Shown here: piece after piece, positions 50,643-64,000 of the stretch | Layout of the letters: each line of letters starts with the position of its first letter | Numbering within the stretch: position 1 is the stretch's first letter | Assembly (NCBI GenBank): GCA_016234485.1 | Contig: JACRBL010000049.1 | Coordinates: 17,095 to 81,094, forward strand | Source: Chloroflexota bacterium | Lineage (GTDB): Bacteria > Chloroflexota > Anaerolineae > Anaerolineales > Villigracilaceae | Direction of reading: 5' to 3' | Length of the DNA: 64,000 bases | Translations under genes and position numbers: made by a program | The notes under the pieces: model-generated | Database searches by the model: none | The model's input: the letters and a program-made list of their open reading frames with translations, nothing else | Told to the model about the DNA's origin: nothing

Positions 50643-51572
50643 CTACGCGCCATCCTCCACGTAATCGCACCATAACTGATACTGATGCACTCGTCCGCGG
50701 ATCGCGTCATGGTAGACCTTTTGGATTTGTCGCGTCACCACGCCGGTCTTGCCTTCGCCGATGGTGCGGAAATCAATTTCGCTCAGGCCGATGACTTCGG
50801 CCGCGGTGCCGCAGACGAAGACCTCGTCGGCCAGGTCGAGTTGGTCGCGCGAGATGGGCTGTTCGAGGATGCGGTAGCCCAGGTCTTTGGCGATGGTGTG
50901 GATGGAGTGACGCGTCACGCCCTCCAGCACGGGCGCGGTGACGGGCGTGGCGATCTTGCCGTGGCGCACGATGAAGAGATTCTCACCCGTGCATTCGGCC
51001 ACATAGCCCTGCGGGTCGAGCATGATGGCTTCCTCGAATCCCAGCCGCACTGATTCGGTCTTGGCGAGGAAACTGTTGGCGTAGTTGCCGGCGATCTTGG
51101 CCTTGGTCATCAACACGTTCGGGTGGTGACGCGTGAACGATGAGATGTTGGCGCGAATGCCCTTTTCCAGCGCTTCCTCGCCGAGGTAGTTGCTCCACTC
51201 CCACACCGCGATTGCCAGCGAGGGCTTGCCGCCGTCCACGTTTAGGTTCCAGCCGCCGTCGTCGAGGTAGATCACGGGGCGGATGTAGCAATCCTTAAAG
51301 CCGTTGACCTTCACGGTCTGCTTGATGGCCTCGATCACCTGCGCGGTCGTCCACGGCAGGGTGCGGAAGCCGAAGACGCGCGCCGAATCGAGCAGGCGCT
51401 CGGCGTGGTCGGCGAGGCGGAAGACGGCGGGACCCTTATCCGTGTTGTAGGCGCGAATGCCCTCGAACACGGCCGCGCCGTAGTGAAGCGCGGGAGTCAA
51501 AAAGTGGATCGTCGCTTTTTCGAACGGCACAAGTTCGCCGTTCATCCAAATGAATTTGGATTCCATGCCCAT
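50643..51572 (-). CDS. ilvE: Branched-chain amino acid aminotransferase
   Basis: FIWMNGELVPFEKATIHFLTPALHYGAAVFEGIRAY; EAIMLDPQGYVAECTGENLFIV. Confidence 0.93.
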   Translation of the reverse strand: MGMESKFIWMNGELVPFEKATIHFLTPALHYGAAVFEGIRAYNTDKGPAVFRLADHAERLLDSARVFGFRTLPWTTAQVIEAIKQTVKVNGFKDCYIRPVIYLDDGGWNLNVDGGKPSLAIAVWEWSNYLGEEALEKGIRANISSFTRHHPNVLMTKAKIAGNYANSFLAKTESVRLGFEEAIMLDPQGYVAECTGENLFIVRHGKIATPVTAPVLEGVTRHSIHTIAKDLGYRILEQPISRDQLDLADEVFVCGTAAEVIGLSEIDFRTIGEGKTGVVTRQIQKVYHDAIRGRVHQYQLWCDYVEDGA

Positions 51573-51584
51573 GGTGTTCTCTCC

Positions 51585-52643
51585 TTACATCCTTGAAATA
51601 ATTTCGTCCGTCATCTGACGGGTTGACAGTGGTCCGCCAAGGTCTGCCGTGCGACAGCCCGCGGTGATGGTCGCGTCCACGGCGTTTTCGATGGACGCGG
51701 CCTCAACTTCCAATTTGAACGAATGACGTAACATCATCGCCGCCGAAAGGATCGTGCCGATCGGGTTGGCGATTCCCTTCCCCGCGATATCGGGCGCGGA
51801 CCCGTGGATCGGTTCATACAACCCCGAAGCGGATTCTGACAAACTGGCCGAGGGCAACATCCCCATCGACCCCGCCAACACCGACGCCTCGTCTGTCAGG
51901 ATGTCGCCGAACATGTTCTCGGTGACGACCACATCCATCCACGCGGGGCCGGTGATGAGGCGCATGGAGGCGGTGTCCACCAGCATATGCTCCAACTCCA
52001 CGTCGGGATTCTCCTTGCCGATCTTCGTGGCGATCTGTCGCCAGAGCCGCGACGATTCCAACACATTGGCCTTGTCCACCGACGTGACTTTTTTCTTCCG
52101 TCCTTTCGCCAGCGTGAAGGCCAACTCCATCACGCGCTTGACTTCGTAATCGTAATACTCCAACGTATCCACCGCGCGCTCGCGTCCATCCTTAAAGTCG
52201 CGCCCTTTCGGCCACCCGAAGTAGAGTCCGCCCGTGAGTTCGCGCACGACCAGGATGTCCACGCCTTCGAGTTTCTCTGGCTTGAGCGGAGACGAGTCGA
52301 TCAGCGCGGGGTGGACTTTGACAGGACGCAGGTTGGCGAACACGCCCAGCCCTTTGCGGAGGGCGAGCAGGCCTCGCTCGGGACGGTCCTTCGCGGCGGG
52401 GTCGTCCCACTTTGGGCCGCCCACTGCGCCGAGCAACACCGCGTCCGCGGATTTGCAATCGGCGAGCGTCTCGTCGGTGAGGGAGGAACCGAATTTGTCA
52501 ATCGAGCAACCGCCCATCAGTCGTTCGGCGAACGCGAAGGCGTGGTTGTATTTACTGGCGATGATTTCCAAAACGCGCACGGCTTCGGTCACAACTTCGG
52601 GGCCAATGCCGTCGCCGGGGAGGAGGGTGATGTTGAAGTTCAT
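51585..52643 (-). CDS. leuB: 3-isopropylmalate dehydrogenase
   Basis: [66 protein letters not shown]. Confidence 0.95.
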
Positions 52644-52656
52644 GTATCTCCTTGTT

Positions 52657-52752
52657 CCGTCATTGCGAGGAGCCGTTCTTGGGCGACGAAGCAATCCCCA
52701 ACAATGCGAGGAGATTGCTGCGGGCGGAAGAACACCGCCCTCGCAATGACGG
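52657..52752. repeat. CCGTCATTGCGAGG...TCGCAATGACGG inverted-repeat element
   Basis: Ends are inverted copies; internal GCGACGAAGCAATC(C/T)CC / GAGATTGCTGCGGGCGG; second copy at 60061. Confidence 0.85.
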
Positions 52753-52760
52753 AAAATGTA

Positions 52761-54317
<1,557 letters not shown>

Positions 54318-54332
54318 ATTGGTCTCTTGGGA

Positions 54333-54439
54333 CATTGGTAAATTGGGGATTGGTAAATTGGGACATTGGTAAATTGGGAATTGATTTCCCAATTTACCGA
54401 TTTACCAACCTACCGACTTCCCAATTTACCAACCTACCG
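54333..54439. repeat. (A)TTGGTAAATTGGG tandem units facing CCCAATTTACC units
   Basis: Three units one way then several inverted; overlaps the leuD stop; related array at 58230. Confidence 0.85.
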
Positions 54440-55012
54440 CTTTTCAAACTCCGCAATTTCTTTTTCGAAGCCGAGAATATAGCCGAGTTCATCTACGCCG
54501 TTGAGCAGGCAAGTTTTGTTGAAGGGATCAATGGGAAAGGGGAAGGAGCCGTGCGGGGTGACGAGGGTTTGTGCGGCGAGGTCAACAGTGAGTTCGGTGG
54601 AGGGGACTTCAGCGAGCAGATCAAATAACATTTTGTGAGTCGCTTCGTCCACGATGATGGGGATGAGGCCGTTCTTGAGGGCGTTGTTGCGGAAGATGTC
54701 GGCGAAGGAGGTGGAGATGACCGCGCGGAATCCGTAACTGGTCAGCGCCCAGGGAGCGTGCTCACGGCTCGACCCGCACCCGAAGTTGTCGCCTGCCAAC
54801 AGAATCTGCGCGCCGCCCGACGCGGGTTGGTTGAGGATGAAATCGGCTTTAGGAGAGCCGCCGTCGTGGTAGCGCCAGTTAAAGAAGAGCGCGTCGGCGA
54901 GACCGTTCTTGTCGGTGACTTTCAAAAATCTTGCTGGAATGATTTGGTCGGTGTCAATATCATTCACAGGTAAAGGAATGGCACGGGAGGTGATAGAGGT
55001 GAATTGGGGCAT
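54434..55012 (-). CDS. leuD: 3-isopropylmalate dehydratase small subunit
   Basis: [48 protein letters not shown]. Confidence 0.95.
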
Positions 55013-55040
55013 GTTTTTTAGGTGGAAAGTTGAAGGTTGA

Positions 55041-55102
55041 AAGTCGATAGTCGGAATTCGATATTCGATACTCGATATTCGATTATCGAATATCGAGTAT
55101 CG
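55041..55102. repeat. AT-rich inverted/tandem repeat of ATTCGATA-type units
   Basis: GTCGATAGTCGGAATTCGATATTCGATACTCGATATTCGATTATCGAATATCGAGTATCG; overlaps the leuC 3' end. Confidence 0.8.
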
Positions 55103-56492
55103 TGCGTGGGTCGGTGACCTTTCCATGGATGGCGGTCGCGGCGGCGGTGATGGGGCTTGCCAAAAATGTACGCGAGCCTTTGCCTTGTCGTCCTTCAAAA
55201 TTGCGGTTGCTGGTGGAGACGGCATATTGACCAACAGGCACTTCATCGCCATTCATAGCGATACAGAGTGAGCAGCCCGCTTCTCTCCATTCCGCGCCTG
55301 CTTCTTTGAAGATCGTGTCGAGACCTTCCTGCTCGGCTTGCTTCTTAACTTCCTGCGAGCCAGGGACGACCATGACGCGTGTGGACGGCGAAACTTTGCG
55401 GCCTTTCAACATCGACGCGGCCAGGCGCAGGTCGGAGATGCGCGAGTTGGTGCAACTGCCGATGAAGACCACGTCCACGTTTTGGCCGAGCAGGGACTGA
55501 CCAGGTTGGAGTCCCATGTAGGTCATGGCTTTTTCGAAGGCGGCTTTTTGCGAAGCGTCGCCGAACGATTCGGCGGTGGGGATGCGGTCGGTGATGCGCA
55601 TGCCCATGCCAGGGTTGGTGCCGTAGGTGATCATCGGTTCCAGCGCGGAGGCGTCGAGCGTGATGGACTTGTCGTAGGTCGCGCCCGCGTCGGAGGGGAG
55701 GGAACGCCACTTGGCGAGAGCCGCCTCCCAGTCTGCGCCGCGCGGGGCGAACTCGCGTCCCGCCAGATATTCGAAGGTCGCGTCGTCGGGAGCGATCATG
55801 CCCGCACGCGCGCCGCCCTCGATGGACATGTTGCAGACGGTCATGCGCTGTTCCATCGTCAGGGCGCGGATGGCGGAACCCGTGTACTCGAAGACGTGTC
55901 CCGTCCCGCCGCCGACGCCGATTTTGGCGATGAGCGCCAGGATGATGTCCTTGGCCGAGACGCCCGCCGCGAGCATCCCTTCGATGCGGACTTCGCAGGT
56001 CTTGGGTTTTTTCTGCAAGAGGCATTGCGTGGCGAGGACGTGTTCCACTTCGGATGTGCCGATGCCGAAGGCCAGCGCGCCGAACGCGCCGTGCGTGGCG
56101 GTGTGACTATCGCCGCAGACGATGGTCATGCCTGGCTGGGTGCGCCCGAGTTCGGGGCCGATCACGTGGACGATGCCGCGATGCGGACTGTCCATGCCGT
56201 GCAGGGTGAGACCGAATTCCGCGGCGTTGACTTCCATTTGCTTGATCTGCGCGGCGGCCAGCGCGTCCGCGATCGGGACGTTTGGCGGCGTGGTCGGGAT
56301 GGAGTGATCCATCGTGGCGAGGGTCTTTTCGGGGCGGCGGACTTTCAGTCCGCGCTGGCGCAGACCTGTGAAGGCCTGCGGCGAAGTGACCTCGTGGACG
56401 AGGTGCAGGTCAATGTAGAGGACGGCGGGGGAATCGGGGCGCTCGGCCACGATGTGCGAGTCCCAGATTTTAGAGAAGAGGGTTTTGGGCAT
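55083..56492 (-). CDS. leuC: 3-isopropylmalate dehydratase large subunit
   Basis: [62 protein letters not shown]. Confidence 0.95.
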
Positions 56493-56544
56493 AATATTTT
56501 TTCAACCGCAAAGCACGCGAAGGGCGCGAAGAAAAACCTTTTAT

Positions 56545-56577
56545 AGACCTCACAGGTTTCCAAAACCTGTGAGGTCT
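56545..56577. repeat. Palindromic hairpin AGACCTCACAGGTTT-CC(A)-AAACCTGTGAGGTCT
   Basis: 15-bp stem; same family as 40978 and 21673. Confidence 0.8.
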
Positions 56578-56584
56578 GGGTTGA

Positions 56585-58219
56585 TTATCCAAGCATGACT
56601 CCAAAATTATTCGCCACAGGCTGTGCGCCTTCGGTCTTGGCGATGATGAGTTTGTTGAGCGCGTTGATGTAGGCCTTCGCGCTCGCGACGATGATGTCGG
56701 TGTCCGCGCCGTGGCCGCCGAAGACGCGCGAGAAAACGCCTTCGGATTGCGCGTCCATTGTGTGCAGTCCGTTCTCGCTTTGGATGCGGACGGTCACTTC
56801 ACCCAGCGCGTCGATGCCTTCGGTGATGGCGTGGATATTGAACTCGAGCAATTTGCACGGCGTTCCGACGATCGCGTCAATGGCTTTGTAGGTCGCGTCC
56901 ACGGGTCCCGTGCCCATCGAAGCGAAGTTGTGGATGACGCGGTCGGGTCCGCGCAGACGGACGGTGGCGGTGGGCATCCCCAACGTGCCGCACGAGACCT
57001 GCAAACCTTCGAGATAGAAAACATCGCGCGGGCGATAGAACTCGTCGGCGATGATCGCTTCGAGATCCGCGTCGGCGATGACCTTCTTGCGGTCGGCCAA
57101 TTCCTTAAAGCGGGCAAAGGCAAGATCAAGTTCGGCCTCGTCGAGCGAGTGTCCCATTTCCGCCAGTCGGTTGCGAAGCGCGTGTCGTCCCGAATGTTTA
57201 CCCAGCACCAGTTTGGTCTGGTTCACGCCCACGTCTTCGGGACGCATGATCTCGTAAGTGGTCTGGTGCTTCAACATGCCGTCTTGATGAATGCCCGCCT
57301 CGTGCGCGAACGCGTTCGCGCCGACGATGGCCTTGTTTGGTTGGACGACCATGCCTGTGTAGTTACTCACCAGTTTGCTGACGCGCGCGATCTGCTTCGT
57401 TTCGATTCCCGTTTCGAGGCCGAAGATCGGATGGCGCGTCTTCAGCGTCATCACCACTTCCTCCAACGACGTGTTGCCGGCGCGTTCGCCGATGCCATTG
57501 ATGGTCACCTCGGCCTGACGCGCGCCCGCGCTGATTCCAGCCAGCGTGTTGGCGGTGGCGAGTCCCAGGTCATCATGGCAATGCACCGAAACCGTGATGC
57601 CCTCGTGCATGCCAGGCGTGTGCTTGATGATGCCGTCAATCAATTTGTAAAATTCATCGGGCGTGGTGTAGCCCACCGTGTCGGGGATGTTGAGCGTGGT
57701 CGCGCCCGACTTGATGGCCTCGCCCAAAACGACGTACAAAAATTCGGGCTCCGAGCGGCCCGCGTCTTCGGGGCTGAACTCCACGTCCGCGCACAACGTC
57801 CGCGCGTAGGCGACCATCTCGGAAACGCGTTGCACCACTTCCTCGGGATCCATCTTCAACTTGTGCTTCATGTGGATCGGCGATGTGGCAAGGAAGGTGT
57901 GGATGCGCGGCTTCTGTGCGCCCTGGATGGCTTCCCACGCCTTGTCAATGTCGGACTTATTCGCGCGCGCCAACCCAGTGATGACGGGAACCCTCGCCTC
58001 ATCCTGACCGCTGGCCGGATTGCCCACCTCAGCCGCGATCCTGCGGACGGCTTCCAGATCGTCGGGCGAAGCGGCCGGGAATCCCGCCTCGATGATGTCC
58101 ACGCCCATGCGCGCCAACGACCGCGCTACTTCCAGCTTCTCGGCGGATGTCATCGTCGCGCCAGGCGATTGCTCGCCGTCGCGCAAAGTTGTGTCGAAAA
58201 TTTTGACGTAATTGCTCAT
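56585..58219 (-). CDS. leuA: 2-isopropylmalate synthase
   Basis: [71 protein letters not shown]-terminal regulatory domain. Confidence 0.95.
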
Positions 58220-58229
58220 GTAGGTCTCC

Positions 58230-58324
58230 AGTAGGTTGGTAGATTGGTAGGTTGGTAAATTGGTGATAGACAATCTACTAATTTACCAATTTACCGATTC
58301 GCAATTTACCGATGCCCAATTTAC
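58230..58324. repeat. GTAGGTTGGTAGATTGGTAGGTTGGTAAATTGG facing AATTTACCAATTTACCG array
   Basis: Same unit family as 54333; covers the ilvC stop codon. Confidence 0.8.
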
Positions 58325-59373
58325 TTCTTCCAATTCTCCGGCCTCAACGACCTCACCGCCGCGCCCGCCTGCCACATTTCGGAATCACGGAAATAGCCGA
58401 GTTCCTTTTCGAGTTGTTCGCGATAATCTGCGCGGCTGTTGGTTTCGAGCGTGATGCGGGCTTCGTTGCCTGTCTTGACCGACTCGTACAGGTCATCGAA
58501 CACGGGCGCGACCGCGTCGCGAAAACGCGCGTGCCAGTCCAATGCGCCGCGTTGGGCGGTGGTGGAGCAGTTGGCGTACATGAAGTCCATGCCGTTCTCG
58601 CCGACGAGACGGATGAGCGACTGCGTGAGTTCTTCCACGGTTTCGTTGAAGGCCTCGGAGGGGGAGTGACCGTTCTGCCGCAACACGTTGTACTGCGCTT
58701 CCATCACGCCCGAGAGCGCGCCGATCAAAATGCCGCGCTCGCCCGTCAGGTCGCTGTAAACTTCGTTTTTGAACGTGGTCGGGAAGAGGTAGCCCGCGCC
58801 GATGGCGATGCCGAGCGCAATGGCGCGTTCGTCCGCCTTGCCAGTGAAATCCTGATGCACCGCGTAACTGGCGTTGATTCCACTGCCCGCCAAAAAGTTG
58901 CGACGCACGCTCGTCCCCGATCCCTTCGGCGCGACCAGAGCCACGTCCACATTCGGCGGTGGGACGACTCCTGTGTCATCCTTAAACGTGACCGAGAAGC
59001 CGTGCGAGAAGTAGAGCATGTCGCCCTCGTTCAGGCACTCGATGATCTTCGGCCATTGCGAGCGCTGACCCGCGTCCGAGAGCAGGTATTGGATGACCGT
59101 GCCGCGCTCGGCGGCCTCTTCGATGGAGAAAAGCGTCTTGCCCGGCTCCCAGCCATCCGCGACGGCGCGATCCCAGTTCTTCGTCCCCGCCCGCTGACCG
59201 ACGATGACGTTGATGCCGTTCTCGCGCATGTTCATCGCCTGCGCAGGTCCCTGCACGCCGTAGCCGATCACCGCCACGACTTCGTTCTTCAACACTTCAC
59301 GCGCCTTCTCAAGCGAAAATTCCTCGCGGGTGACGACATCCTCTTCCACGCCGCCGAAATTGATTTTTGCCAT
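58321..59373 (-). CDS. ilvC: Ketol-acid reductoisomerase
   Basis: VVAVIGYGVQGPAQAMNMRENGINVIVGQR; ALVAPKGSGTSVRRNF. Confidence 0.95.
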   Translation of the reverse strand: MAKINFGGVEEDVVTREEFSLEKAREVLKNEVVAVIGYGVQGPAQAMNMRENGINVIVGQRAGTKNWDRAVADGWEPGKTLFSIEEAAERGTVIQYLLSDAGQRSQWPKIIECLNEGDMLYFSHGFSVTFKDDTGVVPPPNVDVALVAPKGSGTSVRRNFLAGSGINASYAVHQDFTGKADERAIALGIAIGAGYLFPTTFKNEVYSDLTGERGILIGALSGVMEAQYNVLRQNGHSPSEAFNETVEELTQSLIRLVGENGMDFMYANCSTTAQRGALDWHARFRDAVAPVFDDLYESVKTGNEARITLETNSRADYREQLEKELGYFRDSEMWQAGAAVRSLRPENWKK

Positions 59374-59393
59374 AATCAGTTCTCCTTTTTGTT

Positions 59394-59480
59394 GTCATTG
59401 CGAGCGAAGCGAAGCAACCTCCTCGCACATGACAGTATTATTTGATCCTAGGGGATTGCTTCAGGCTGTCGCCCTCGCAG
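59394..59480. repeat. Degenerate copy of the TCATTGCGAGG/CGAAGCAATC element
   Basis: GTCATTGCGAGCGAAGCGAAGCAACCTCCTCGC...GGGGATTGCTTCAGGCTGTCGCCCTCGCAGAGACG. Confidence 0.65.
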
Positions 59481-59492
59481 AGACGATGGAGG

Positions 59493-60047
59493 TTACAACG
59501 CCAACTCCGCGACCTCATACTCGTTCAAACGATTCGCGCTCATCGGGATGCGGCGCACGCCGTCGTTGACGCCGCGCGTCATCGAGACCTGTCCCGTCCG
59601 CACCATTTCCACGATGCCGATGGGACGAAGCAACTCGATCATGCCTTCGATCTTGTCCTCGGTGCCGGTGATCTCCACGATGACCGAGTCCACCGCCACG
59701 TCCACGATGTGGGCGCGGAAGATCTCGGCCAGGTTGTTGACCTCGGCGCGCTTCTCGGGCGCGACCATCACTTTGATCAGCGCCAGGTCGCGCGTCACCG
59801 AAGGCTGGTGCGTCACGTCCTGCACGTCAATCACGTTGACCAGTTTGTACAAGTTGGCTTCGATCTTGTGCGCGTCCACGTCGCCATTGGGACAGCCCAC
59901 CACCACGGTCATGCGCGAGACCTCGGGTTTTTCCGTTCGTCCCACCGCGAGGGACTCAATGTTGAAATTGCGGCGGCGAAACAGCGAAGCCACGCGGTTC
60001 AACACGCCCGGTTTGTTTTCTACTAATGCGATGAAGGTGTAGTTCAT
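59493..60047 (-). CDS. ilvN: Acetolactate synthase small regulatory subunit
   Basis: MNYTFIALVENKPGVLNRVASLFRRRNFNIESLAVGRTEKPEVSRMTVVV (ACT domain). Confidence 0.95.
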   Translation of the reverse strand: MNYTFIALVENKPGVLNRVASLFRRRNFNIESLAVGRTEKPEVSRMTVVVGCPNGDVDAHKIEANLYKLVNVIDVQDVTHQPSVTRDLALIKVMVAPEKRAEVNNLAEIFRAHIVDVAVDSVIVEITGTEDKIEGMIELLRPIGIVEMVRTGQVSMTRGVNDGVRRIPMSANRLNEYEVAELAL

Positions 60048-60060
60048 TCTTTTCTCCTTT

Positions 60061-60144
60061 GTCATTGCGAGGAGCGCAGCGACGAAGCAATCTCCTGTTA
60101 CGAGGGGATTGCTTCGGGCGGGAGAGCGCCGCCCTCGCAATGAC
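60061..60144. repeat. GTCATTGCGAGG...CCTCGCAATGAC inverted-repeat element
   Basis: Near copy of 52657-52752 with GCGACGAAGCAATCTCC and GGGATTGCTTCGGGCGG. Confidence 0.85.
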
Positions 60145-60154
60145 GAAACAACTC

Positions 60155-61840
60155 TTACGCTCTCACAGGTCTCTGCAACATCTGATCCAACGCCGCGCCG
60201 GCAGGCACCATCGGATAGACCGCGTCTTCCTTTTCCACGCGGAACTCCAGCACGGCGGAGCCATCCACCGCGCGCGCCCAGGCGATGGCCTTGTCCACCT
60301 CGGCGCGGGCGCTGACGCGGCGGCCAGGAATGCCGTGCGCGTCGGCGATCTTGATGAAGTCGGGCGCTGTCATGTGGACGCCCGAGTAGCGTTTGTCGAA
60401 GAAGAACTCCTGCCACTGACGCACCATGCCGAGGAAGTTGTTGTTCATAATGGCGATCTTCACGTTCGCGCCTTCCTGTATCACCGTAGCCAGTTCGGCC
60501 TGCGTCATCTGGAATCCGCCGTCGCCCGCCACCACCCAGATCTCCTCGTCCTTGTGCGCGAACCACGCGCCCAGGGCGGCGGGCAGACCAAAGCCCATCG
60601 TCCCCGCGCCGCCCGAAGACAGCCAGCGATTCGGTTTTTCGAGCGCATAATATTGCGCCGTCCACATCTGGTGTTGACCGACGTCCGTCGCGACGATGGC
60701 GTTTCCGCCCGTGGCCTTCCAAATGTCCGCGATGAGATGCGCCACGTAAAGTTTGTCATCGTTCGCCCAATTCATGATCGAGCGCGCGTCCGCTTCGGCT
60801 TTCCACTCGGCGATGGCGTGCAACCATTCCTCATGGTCATGTTCGTCCACCATCGGGATCAGGTCGTTCAGCACGGTTTTCAAATCGCCGATCAGAGGCA
60901 CATCCACCGCCACGTTCTTGTGGACTTCGGACGGGTCAATCTCGATGTGAATTTTCTTCGCCCGCGGCGCGTACGTCTTGAGCGTGCCCGTCACGCGGTC
61001 ATCGAAGCGCATGCCAAAGGCCAGGATCAGGTCCGAGTTTTGGATCGCCAGGTTGGTGTGGACTTCGCCGTGCATGCCCATCATGCCGAGCGCCAGCGGA
61101 TGCGAGGCAGGGAACGCGCCCAGCCCGAGTAACGTGCTAGCCACGGGCGTCTGCGTCTTGACCGCGAAGTGCATCAGCGCCTCTTCCGCGCCCGACATCA
61201 ACACGCCATGTCCGCACAAAATGATCGGCTTCTGCGCGCGCTCGATCAAATGGACGGCGCGCTCCAACGCGTCCGCGGAGGCGTGATCCATCGGCTGATA
61301 GCCAGGCAGTTTCACGTTTTCGGGATAGACGAACTCCGCCTGCTCCACCTGCGCGTTCTTGCAGATGTCAATCAGAACGGGGCCAGGCCGTCCACTGCGG
61401 GCGATGTAAAAGGCCTCGCGCACCACCTCGGCGATCTCGTCGGCACGCGTCACGAGGTAATTATGTTTCGTGATCGGCAAGGTGATGCCCGTTACGTCAG
61501 TTTCCTGAAAGGCGTCGCCGCCGATCAAGTGCGCGGCAACCTGTCCCGTTACAAAAATCACGGGGACAGAATCCATCATCGCGGTGGCAATGCCCGTCAC
61601 GAGATTCGTCGCGCCCGGTCCCGATGTCGCCATCGCCATGCCCACTTTACTCGAGGCGCGCGCGTATCCGTCCGCCATGTGCGCCGCGCCCTGTTCATGG
61701 CGCACCAGCACGTGATGGATCGGGTAGTTCAGCATGGCGTCGTAGATCGGCATGTTCGCGCCGCCCGGATACCCGAACACCACCTCCACGCCCTCGCGCA
61801 CCACGCACTCCCACAAAATCTCTGCTCCTGTTTTTTTCAT
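60155..61840 (-). CDS. ilvB: Acetolactate synthase large catalytic subunit
   Basis: [82 protein letters not shown]. Confidence 0.95.
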
Positions 61841-61911
61841 TCTCTTCTCCTTTGGATCTGTGCAAAAACAACTTCCCATTTTCAAAGTTCGCGAGCAGTT
61901 GCACTGCGAGC

Positions 61912-61963: not shown

Positions 61964-63631
61964 TTATGATTGCAACACCGCGCCCGTATCCGCGCTGGTT
62001 ACGAAATGTGAATAACGCCTGAGCCACTTGCTTTGGATATTCAACTGGAACGGAGTCAGCGCCGCCAGCCGACTCTTCATCTCCGCCTCGCTCAATCGGA
62101 CCTCGAGGCGGCGCGCGGCCAAATCAATCTCGATCACGTCCCCGGGCCTCAGCGCGGCGATCGGACCTCCCGCGGCCGCCTCCGGCGAGATGTGACCGAT
62201 GCACGCGCCGCGCGTCCCGCCGCTGAATCGCCCGTCGGTGATCAGCGCCACCTTGTCGCCCAGTCCCTGCCCCATGATGGCGGAGGTGGGGGAGAGCATC
62301 TCCTGCATCCCCGGCCCGCCCTTCGGCCCCTCGTAGCGGACGACGACCACGTCCCCCGCCTTGACCTCGTTCGCGAGAATCCCCGCCAACGCCGCGTCCT
62401 GCGACTCGTAGATGCGCGCCGGCCCGCTGAACTTCATCATGCTCGCGCTCACGCCGCCGACCTTAACCACCGCGCCTTTCGGGGCGAGATTGCCAAACAG
62501 GATGGACAAACCACCGCGCCTGGAATGTGCATTTTCGTAGCGACGAATCACCTCGTCATCTTGAATCTCGCAACCTTGAATCGATTCCCCCAACGTTGTG
62601 CCGCTCACCGTGGGACGCTCCATGTGCAACATACTCGTGCCGCGCTGCACTTCGTTCAAAATGGCGGGAATGCCTCCCGCGCGATGAACATCTTCCATGT
62701 GCCATTTGCCCGCCGGCGACACTTTGCAAATGTGCGGCGCTTTATCGGCGACTGAATTAATTCGATCCAGCGGATAATCCACGCCCGCTTCGTTCGCCAG
62801 CGCCAGCGTGTGCAACACCGTGTTCGACGAGCCGCCCATCGCCATGTCCAGCGCGAAGGCGTCGTCAATCGCGTCGGCAGTCACGATGTCGCGCGGCTTG
62901 AGGTCGCGTTCGATCAGCGTCATAATCTGCGCCGCGGCCTTCTTTGCCAGCGCTTCACGTTCAGGGGTCTTCGCCAGCGCTGAGCCGTTGAACGGCAATG
63001 CCAGCCCGATCACTTCCATCAGGCAGTTCATCGAATTGGCCGTGAACATGCCCGAACACGAGCCGCACGAGGGACAGGCAAATTTTTCCAAAATGGATAA
63101 TCGCTTCTCGTCAATCTTCCCCGCTGAAAATGCCCCCACGCCTTCAAATACCGAGATCAAATCAATCGCTTCGCCGTCGGGAGTCTTGCCCGCGGCCATC
63201 GGCCCGCCAGAGACGAAGATGGTCGGGATGTTCACGCGCATGGCGGCCAACAACATGCCCGGCACGATCTTGTCGCAGTTGGGGATGCAGACCATCGCGT
63301 CGAAACGGTGCGCCTCGATCATCGTCTCGACGCAGTCCGCGATCAGTTCACGCGAAGGAAGCGAGTACTTCATCCCCATGTGGCCCATCGCGATGCCATC
63401 GTCCACGCCGATGGTGTTGAACTCAAACGGCGCTCCGCCCGCGGCGCGCACTGCGTCTTTCACCAGTTTGCCGAACTCCTGCAAATGGACGTGGCCCGGC
63501 ACAACGTCAATGTATGAATTAACGATCGCAACGAACGGTTTCTCAAAGTCGGTTTCCTGTACCCCCGTGGCGCGCAACAGCGCGCGATGCGGCGCTTTGT
63601 CGTATCCTTTCTTGACGGTGTCAGATCTCAT
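61964..63631 (-). CDS. ilvD: Dihydroxy-acid dehydratase
   Basis: [95 protein letters not shown]. Confidence 0.95.
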
Positions 63632-63692: not shown

Positions 63693-63724
63693 AAAAAAGC
63701 CGCTCCGACGTGGTCGGAGCGGCT
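63693..63724 (-). terminator. Rho-independent terminator in the ilv leader (putative attenuator)
   Basis: Minus strand AGCCGCTCCGAC-CAC-GTCGGAGCGGCTTTTTT: perfect 12-bp stem, 3-nt loop, T-run; upstream of ilvD, downstream of the BCAA-rich peptide. Confidence 0.92.
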
Positions 63725-63751
63725 CTGTGTTTCCAGATTTGGTGTGCGAGT

Positions 63752-63853
63752 TTATTTTGCTCTCACCGTTGCCAGTCCAACCACAAACAGGTCCTTAATA
63801 ATAAGGACCGCAAGAAGGACGACAATAACGGAGAGGGAGAAAATTGGATTCAT
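63752..63853 (-). CDS. Branched-chain-amino-acid-rich leader peptide (ilv attenuation leader)
   Basis: ATG frame MNPIFSLSVIVVLLAVLIIKDLFVVGLATVRAK* with 17 of 33 residues I/L/V; stop is 27 nt before the terminator stem; absent from the supplied ORF track. Confidence 0.82.
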   Translation of the reverse strand: MNPIFSLSVIVVLLAVLIIKDLFVVGLATVRAK

Positions 63854-63881
63854 ACTGGCTCTAAGTAGTCAGTCGAAATAG

Positions 63882-63909
63882 ATTATAAGGCATGATACAC
63901 TTTCGTCAT
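63882..63909 (-). promoter_or_regulatory. Candidate sigma70-like promoter for the ilv leader
   Basis: Minus strand ATGACG-N16-TATAAT; -10 about 30 nt upstream of the leader ATG. Confidence 0.6.
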
Positions 63910-64000
63910 GAGAACCGTATACCAACTCAAGCCAAAAGAGTTAGCCGAAATAGAAAAAGCCATTCGGCAAGACAAACGAGCAGAAGTCAAACAGCGTGCA
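63908..64000 (+). CDS. 5' end of a putative IS630-like transposase/HTH protein, cut by window edge
   Basis: ATG frame MRTVYQLKPKELAEIEKAIRQDKRAEVKQRA open to the window end; resembles N-termini of IS630-type ORFs from memory only. Confidence 0.45.
   Translation, partial: MRTVYQLKPKELAEIEKAIRQDKRAEVKQRA

Follow-up and report, generated by a model that had tools for sequence, protein, structure and literature searches.

The window, a stretch of 64,000 nucleotides that ends with contig C33 of an assembly of 68 contigs, carries on its minus strand a short open reading frame (ORF), an intrinsic terminator and ten genes for branched-chain amino acid (BCAA) synthesis. The Pfam and NCBIfam assignments gave the gene order ilvD, ilvB, ilvN, ilvC, leuA, leuC, leuD, cimA, leuB and ilvE, so that the ten genes from ilvD to ilvE do lie behind the leader on one strand, as the earlier note on this DNA had stated. 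The nine genes after ilvD are closely spaced and share its strand, the terminator scan found no strong minus-strand terminator between the ten, and we infer a single transcript spanning all of them. The citramalate synthase gene cimA (TIGR00977) is located at 52761-54392, inside the ilv-leu cluster, which suggests an isoleucine route independent of threonine. The features of the locus are as follows, with the evidence for each in brackets.

50643..61885, minus strand: ilvB, ilvN, ilvC, leuA, leuC, leuD, cimA, leuB and ilvE, the presumed remainder of the operon (Pfam, NCBIfam, strand, spacing)
61964..63631, minus strand: ilvD, the first structural gene (PF00920/TIGR00110)
63693..63725, minus strand: intrinsic terminator (3:4), stem 12-13 bp, loop 3 nt, U6 (scan, fold, conservation, covariation)
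63710..63723, minus strand: segment 3 (GCCGCUCCGACCAC), common to the antiterminator and the 5' arm of the terminator (folding, covariation)
63752..63853, minus strand: leader ORF, 33 codons, 17 of them Ile/Leu/Val (kept upstream of ilvD in relatives)
63754..63844, minus strand: 1:2 hairpin (protector), long and imperfect, nearly the whole leader ORF (fold; partner-swap test)
63771..63784, minus strand: segment 2 (GUGGUUGGACUGGC), 5' arm of the antiterminator, within the leader ORF (pairing with segment 3; covariation)
63788..63829, minus strand: control-codon window, codons 9-22 (VIVVLLAVLIIKDL) (stall scan of the window and 129 leaders)
63790..63809, minus strand: apical 8-bp stem GGUCCUUA-UUAU-UAAGGACC of the 1:2 hairpin, covarying (covariation; swap test)
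63862..63863, no strand: TA target-site duplication flanking an insertion sequence (IS) (TA at both IS junctions)
63864..64000, plus strand: left end of the multi-copy IS (same sequence at 11 other sites in the genome)
63882..63909, minus strand: outward promoter-like ATGACG-N16-TATAAT inside the IS end, non-native (scan; within the repeat)

The leader ORF (63853-63752) encodes the peptide MNPIFSLSVIVVLLAVLIIKDLFVVGLATVRAK, in which 17 of the 33 residues are Ile, Leu or Val, and its frame is kept in relatives. It is followed by a perfect 12-bp stem, AGCCGCTCCGAC-CAC-GTCGGAGCGGCT, at 63724-63698, a run of six T residues at 63698-63693 and the ilvD start at 63631. Everything that the earlier note had said of the sequence itself is correct on the minus strand. 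Its use of the plus-strand ORF translation as independent proof of the reading register is invalid; it is the conservation of the frame in relatives that supports the register instead. Local scans returned more signals than shuffled sequences did, both for promoters (2 against 0.4) and for terminators (4 against 0.9). A clear Shine-Dalgarno sequence before the leader ATG was seen neither in the window nor in most relatives, and translation of the leader would presumably begin without an evident one.

Conservation across related genomes shows which parts of a leader have been retained. The leader ORF and terminator recur upstream of ilvD, ilvB, ilvE or leuC in more than 100 Anaerolineae genomes, and the same leader and terminator were present in almost all close relatives that have this ilvD, for example MNTIFTLSLIVVLLAVLIIKDLFLVRMATVRVQK at locus L010. 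Where records carrying the leader are named, they are Chloroflexi or Anaerolineae metagenome-assembled genomes, such as JACPYX010000001, whose ilvD is 85% identical. A covariance model (R1) built from the leaders of 18 relatives matched 106 of 251 genomes of the order, the window's own match being so by construction and most others not. It also matched 108 of 298 genomes drawn from the class (93 of them outside the order), many class genomes having no detected match under strict filters. Among 301 genomes drawn from the phylum, only three outside the class were matched, and the match at L174, outside the class, is doubtful. The L222 match, which runs into the end of a longer ORF, is probably spurious. 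The 164 aligned matches, which include some loci fetched twice, stand before ilvD in 104 cases, ilvB in 32, ilvE in three and leuC in two. Loss of the peptide or hairpin in relatives had been named beforehand as evidence against an attenuator; peptide, terminator and position are kept across the class. A search for further copies of the switch in the window genome gave no better than weak matches (E 0.29 and 0.62), and neither of its two LivJ-like genes showed a leader of this type upstream.

Folding of the leader RNA was performed to identify alternative helices. The RNA upstream of segment 3 has a minimum free energy of -34.0 kcal/mol (z -3.0 against dinucleotide shuffles), in a computed fold that includes a minor downstream stem besides the 1:2 hairpin, and the full-length leader RNA folds as 1:2 plus terminator. 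A mutually exclusive antiterminator, which had been proposed as a check, was found: segment 2 (63784-63771) pairs with segment 3 (63723-63710) at 13 of 14 positions, and this pairing covaries. The palindrome GGTCCTTA-TTAT-TAAGGACC at 63809-63790 on the minus strand is present as previously described; it is the tip of the 1:2 hairpin and not the separate pause or competing hairpin that had been suggested, and may also cause pausing.

The covariation analysis highlighted pairs that change in concert. In alignment A1, double changes were observed in seven of the 13 antiterminator pairs, with 16 double-change cells against 4.7 in shuffles, and 85.9% of the antiterminator cells were paired against 28-55% when the arms were slid. 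The terminator and apical stem together gave 20 double-change cells against 5.6 in shuffles, with 91% paired. For 1:2 in a fixed 7-bp register, 78.6% of cells were paired against 26-68% when slid; in this register the covariation showed no excess over shuffles, and support for 1:2 therefore rests on a freer partner-swap test. That test covered 24 representative leaders of less than 65% identity with 20,000 permutations, and pairing with the own partner was better than in every permutation for 1:2, 2:3 and 3:4. The z values were -8.9 for 2:3 and -5.9 for 1:2, with 0.0 for the negative control 1:3, these three being free of bias from the choice of arms; the values for 3:4 (-12.9) and the apical stem (-11.0) are partly so by construction, because their arms were chosen as the best self-pairing stretches. 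The predicted four-segment switch is thus supported by covariation.

On ilv-leu operons, T-box leaders resemble the present one in that amino acid supply controls the same genes through a terminator and an antiterminator; they sense tRNA directly and need no translation to do so. A ligand- or tRNA-sensing leader (T-box, ppGpp or another riboswitch), in which the ORF would be incidental, accounts for a structured RNA with a terminator, and T-boxes and ppGpp riboswitches are generally known to serve ilv genes elsewhere (PMC10272879). In the window and 16 related loci, however, no Rfam family (T-box, Leu_leader, ykkC/ppGpp and others) matched at the gathering threshold, the only sub-threshold match in the window region being an unrelated sRNA (E 0.16), and it is the coding region itself that is structured. 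The T-box, riboswitch and other Rfam families were rejected as the identity of the leader, and a sensor of this kind has next to no likelihood here.

Stalling of the ribosome was simulated by masking the RNA beneath it codon by codon, followed by folding. With a ribosome stalled in codons 9-22, the 1:2 stem was broken and segment 2 was largely free. In the nascent window RNA, the antiterminator formed at ∼0.99 for stalls through codon 19, partially to codon 23 and at 0 from codon 24, while in the full window RNA 1:2 was broken from about codon 8; stalls at codons ∼8-22 should therefore antiterminate. At least seven antiterminator pairs formed in 125 of the 129 leaders, and the fraction of Ile, Leu and Val across these leaders was 0.64 in the permissive codons, 0.35 before them and 0.26 after them. 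The leader control codons are skewed toward low-use synonyms: CTT makes up three of the six Leu codons in the leader against 5% of those in the operon, and ATT four of the four Ile codons against 23%. In equilibrium folding without a ribosome, nascent RNA ending at segment 3 favoured 2:3 and the full-length RNA favoured the terminator in every case. Since equilibrium folding alone gives no switch, the order of synthesis must decide, as it does in other attenuators; on this model, 1:2 must win kinetically, by earlier formation, and antitermination likewise needs kinetic order.

A conserved hydrophobic ORF may also encode a functional small (membrane) protein, with a terminator that merely separates it from ilvD. 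The peptide does have the look of one transmembrane helix carrying a basic tail, and its hydrophobicity has been conserved. A protein alone would not, however, require the RNA to covary within the ORF and with the terminator; the Ile, Leu and Val codons cluster in the stall window, and the peptide tracks the pathway, being Met-rich before a Cys/Met gene and rich in aromatic residues and Met before liv transporters. We consider a small protein very improbable as the reason for this conservation.

The locus shows the features of trp/his/ilv-type attenuators: a leader ORF rich in Ile, Leu and Val, an intrinsic terminator, an exclusive antiterminator, a 1:2 helix that holds the control codons, and a stall that blocks segment 1 and spares segment 2. 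We therefore interpret it as a ribosome-mediated transcription attenuator of the ilv-leu operon, with a probability of about 0.93; the conserved peptide, terminator and position and the covarying antiterminator support this reading, which the earlier note had put forward. Sequence and comparison together carry the ORF, the covarying alternative helices, the codon placement, the gene context and the disruption by the IS described below. Translation of the leader, ribosome stalling and termination would presumably follow in vivo.

In the proposed mechanism, a ribosome would translate the leader ORF while RNA polymerase transcribes the leader. With charged Ile, Leu and Val tRNAs plentiful, the ribosome would reach the stop codon and depart, the 1:2 hairpin (63844-63754) would close and hide segment 2, and the 3:4 terminator would end transcription ahead of ilvD. 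If one or more of the three amino acids ran short, the ribosome would stall at codons ∼9-22 and cover segment 1, segment 2 would pair with segment 3, and the blocked terminator would allow the ten genes to be transcribed.

The region upstream of the leader is interrupted in this strain. The 137 bp from 63864 onward belong to an IS that runs off the end of contig C33; this IS end (138-143 bp) occurs at 11 further sites in the genome, which lie at the ends of contigs wherever the contig's length is known, and the copies read terminate in GACTACT followed by TA. A transposase ORF starts at 63908 on the plus strand and also runs off the contig. TA is present at both junctions, at 63863-63862 in the window and beside AGTAGTCGTTC on contig C41. 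The AGTAGTC inverted-repeat ends, the TA on both sides and the multiple copies are those of IS630-type elements, and the TA target with the short inverted repeat suggests an IS630-like family; the Pfam search of the assembled transposase ORF ends (31 and 41 aa only) gave no match above cut-off. The right end occurs in 18 exact copies, nearly all near contig ends, and the expansion of the IS is probably recent and likely to have fragmented the assembly.

A search with the promoter of relatives identified TTGACGGATCTCCCGTTCTGCCTATAATCTGGCGAAATC at C41:54005-54043; TA and the other IS end come immediately after it, 137 bp from the contig end. This is the native promoter, TTGACG-N16-TATAAT, in a position syntenic with relatives. 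The C41 DNA upstream, which holds an aspartate-kinase-like ORF (named by eye) on the opposite strand, aligns with the region before ilvD in two relatives (∼71-72% across 0.9-1.1 kb). The joined flanks, ...TATAATCTGGCGAAATC-TA-GAGCCAGTATGAATCC, agree with the uninterrupted promoter-leader junction of relatives, which places the insertion of the IS at a TA that lay between the promoter and the leader. The ATGACG-N16-TATAAT reported earlier is indeed present at 63909-63882, where it matches 10 of 12 consensus positions; it was rejected as the native promoter, because it belongs to the repeated IS end, from which it may act as a promoter.

As the native promoter is now cut off from the leader by the IS, initiation in this strain would be altered, and may proceed from the IS-end promoter, by read-through or at a reduced level. 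The operon may then have become constitutive or silent and the attenuator irrelevant in this strain, which is compatible with attenuation in the relatives; the separation from the native promoter and the promoter-like site at the IS end speak for it. We regard such decoupling as unlikely. With no damage to leader, antiterminator or terminator, transcription begun at the IS end would still run through the switch; and the insertion is possibly recent, since the 18 right ends searched are identical. As judged from its sequence, the attenuator itself is intact in this strain despite the IS, and the insertion represents a natural promoter-replacement experiment on it.

The enterobacterial ilvGMEDA, ilvBN and leuABCD operons are controlled by leader attenuators with a BCAA-rich ORF and alternative helices (cited in PMC5794164). 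The present leader shares with them the BCAA-rich ORF, the 1:2, 2:3 and 3:4 helices and the intrinsic terminator before BCAA genes. It differs in that the leader ORF contains segment 2 and is almost wholly taken up by 1:2, and in that ilvD comes first, leuACDB and cimA are part of the operon and the phylum is another. The Staphylococcus aureus ilvD leader has an Ile/Leu-rich peptide and a terminator before an ilv-leu operon that likewise begins with ilvD (PMC5794164); its antiterminator was proposed to pair with the poly-U tail while the terminator stem stays whole (PMC5794164), whereas here the antiterminator takes the 5' arm of the terminator. The Corynebacterium ilvB-II, ilvB-OMG and Leptospira ilvB motifs, found comparatively, have upstream ORFs (uORFs) rich in BCAA codons (PMC10272879), and actinobacterial ilvB leaders combine such a uORF with a terminator (PMC1262725), which is also present in ilvB-II (PMC10272879). 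The Corynebacterium ilvB uORFs are short, usually 15-17 aa against 33 aa here, and belong to another structure and lineage. Caution is due for the attenuator reading, because a similar-looking leader of Streptomyces coelicolor ilvB failed a codon-mutation test (PMC1262725).

This is a textbook kind of switch, and its lineage-wide version in Anaerolineae is apparently undescribed; no leader-peptide attenuator in Chloroflexota was found in the literature covered, which takes in little of the subscription literature. The leader adds a covariation-supported family of translation-coupled attenuators in Chloroflexota that has no matching Rfam model. In this mostly uncultured group, leader codons can provide a direct, testable readout of the signal to which each enzyme or transporter downstream responds.

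The same scaffold was located before other genes. Six loci (L152, L191, L201, L206, L214, L218) carry it before liv-type transporter genes, which at the one locus tested with Pfam are Peripla_BP_6 followed by BPD_transp_2. The leaders of these loci are rich in Ile, Met, Phe, Tyr and Trp codons, for example MLNISLAIIIIMLYWFLHIIMEDQIQVGRAEKIKTK, hinting at broad hydrophobic amino acid uptake. At two loci (L215:2001-2162 and L219:201-366), the scaffold precedes a gene resembling the S-component of an ECF-type transporter, the Pfam match being below cut-off; one such leader is LFILIAYYLISFIIM. A Met-rich leader on the same scaffold, MNPTTLVILGIFAMMMSMLMPRSRAWVVASRRRRH (FAMMMSMLM), stands before a Cys_Met_Meta_PP (Cys/Met PLP) gene at L253:201-362, and a similar leader is present at L216:3540-3702; these are candidate ribosome-mediated methionine attenuators. 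The chances seem about even that the Anaerolineae inherited one scaffold, a long leader-ORF hairpin with a GGUUGGG/CCCAACC-type antiterminator, as a modular sensor retargeted by control-codon swaps, whose promoter was replaced by an IS in the present strain with the sensor left intact. The codon sets would be Ile, Leu and Val before ilv/leu genes; Ile, Phe, Met, Trp and Tyr before liv-type transporters; aromatic residues and Ile before the ECF-type gene; and Met (MMMSMLM) before the Cys/Met gene. If retargeting is true, transporter substrates would be predictable from leader codons.

Variants were also observed upstream of ilvD. Tandem units of leader ORF and terminator are present at L017, L048, L198, L202, L248 and L251, which would steepen the response or sense multiple amino acids. 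A short ORF lies between terminator and ilvD at L020 and L022 (∼42 aa) and, longer and with a similar end, at L032; the L020 ORF, which ends in ..EAAQWVSDAMFDAYNG, had no Pfam match. Unrelated short ORFs rich in Ile, Leu and Val precede ilvD in other phyla, at L042 (Ignavibacteriae), L046 (Calditrichia) and L049 (CSSED10-310), and these are possibly independent attenuators.
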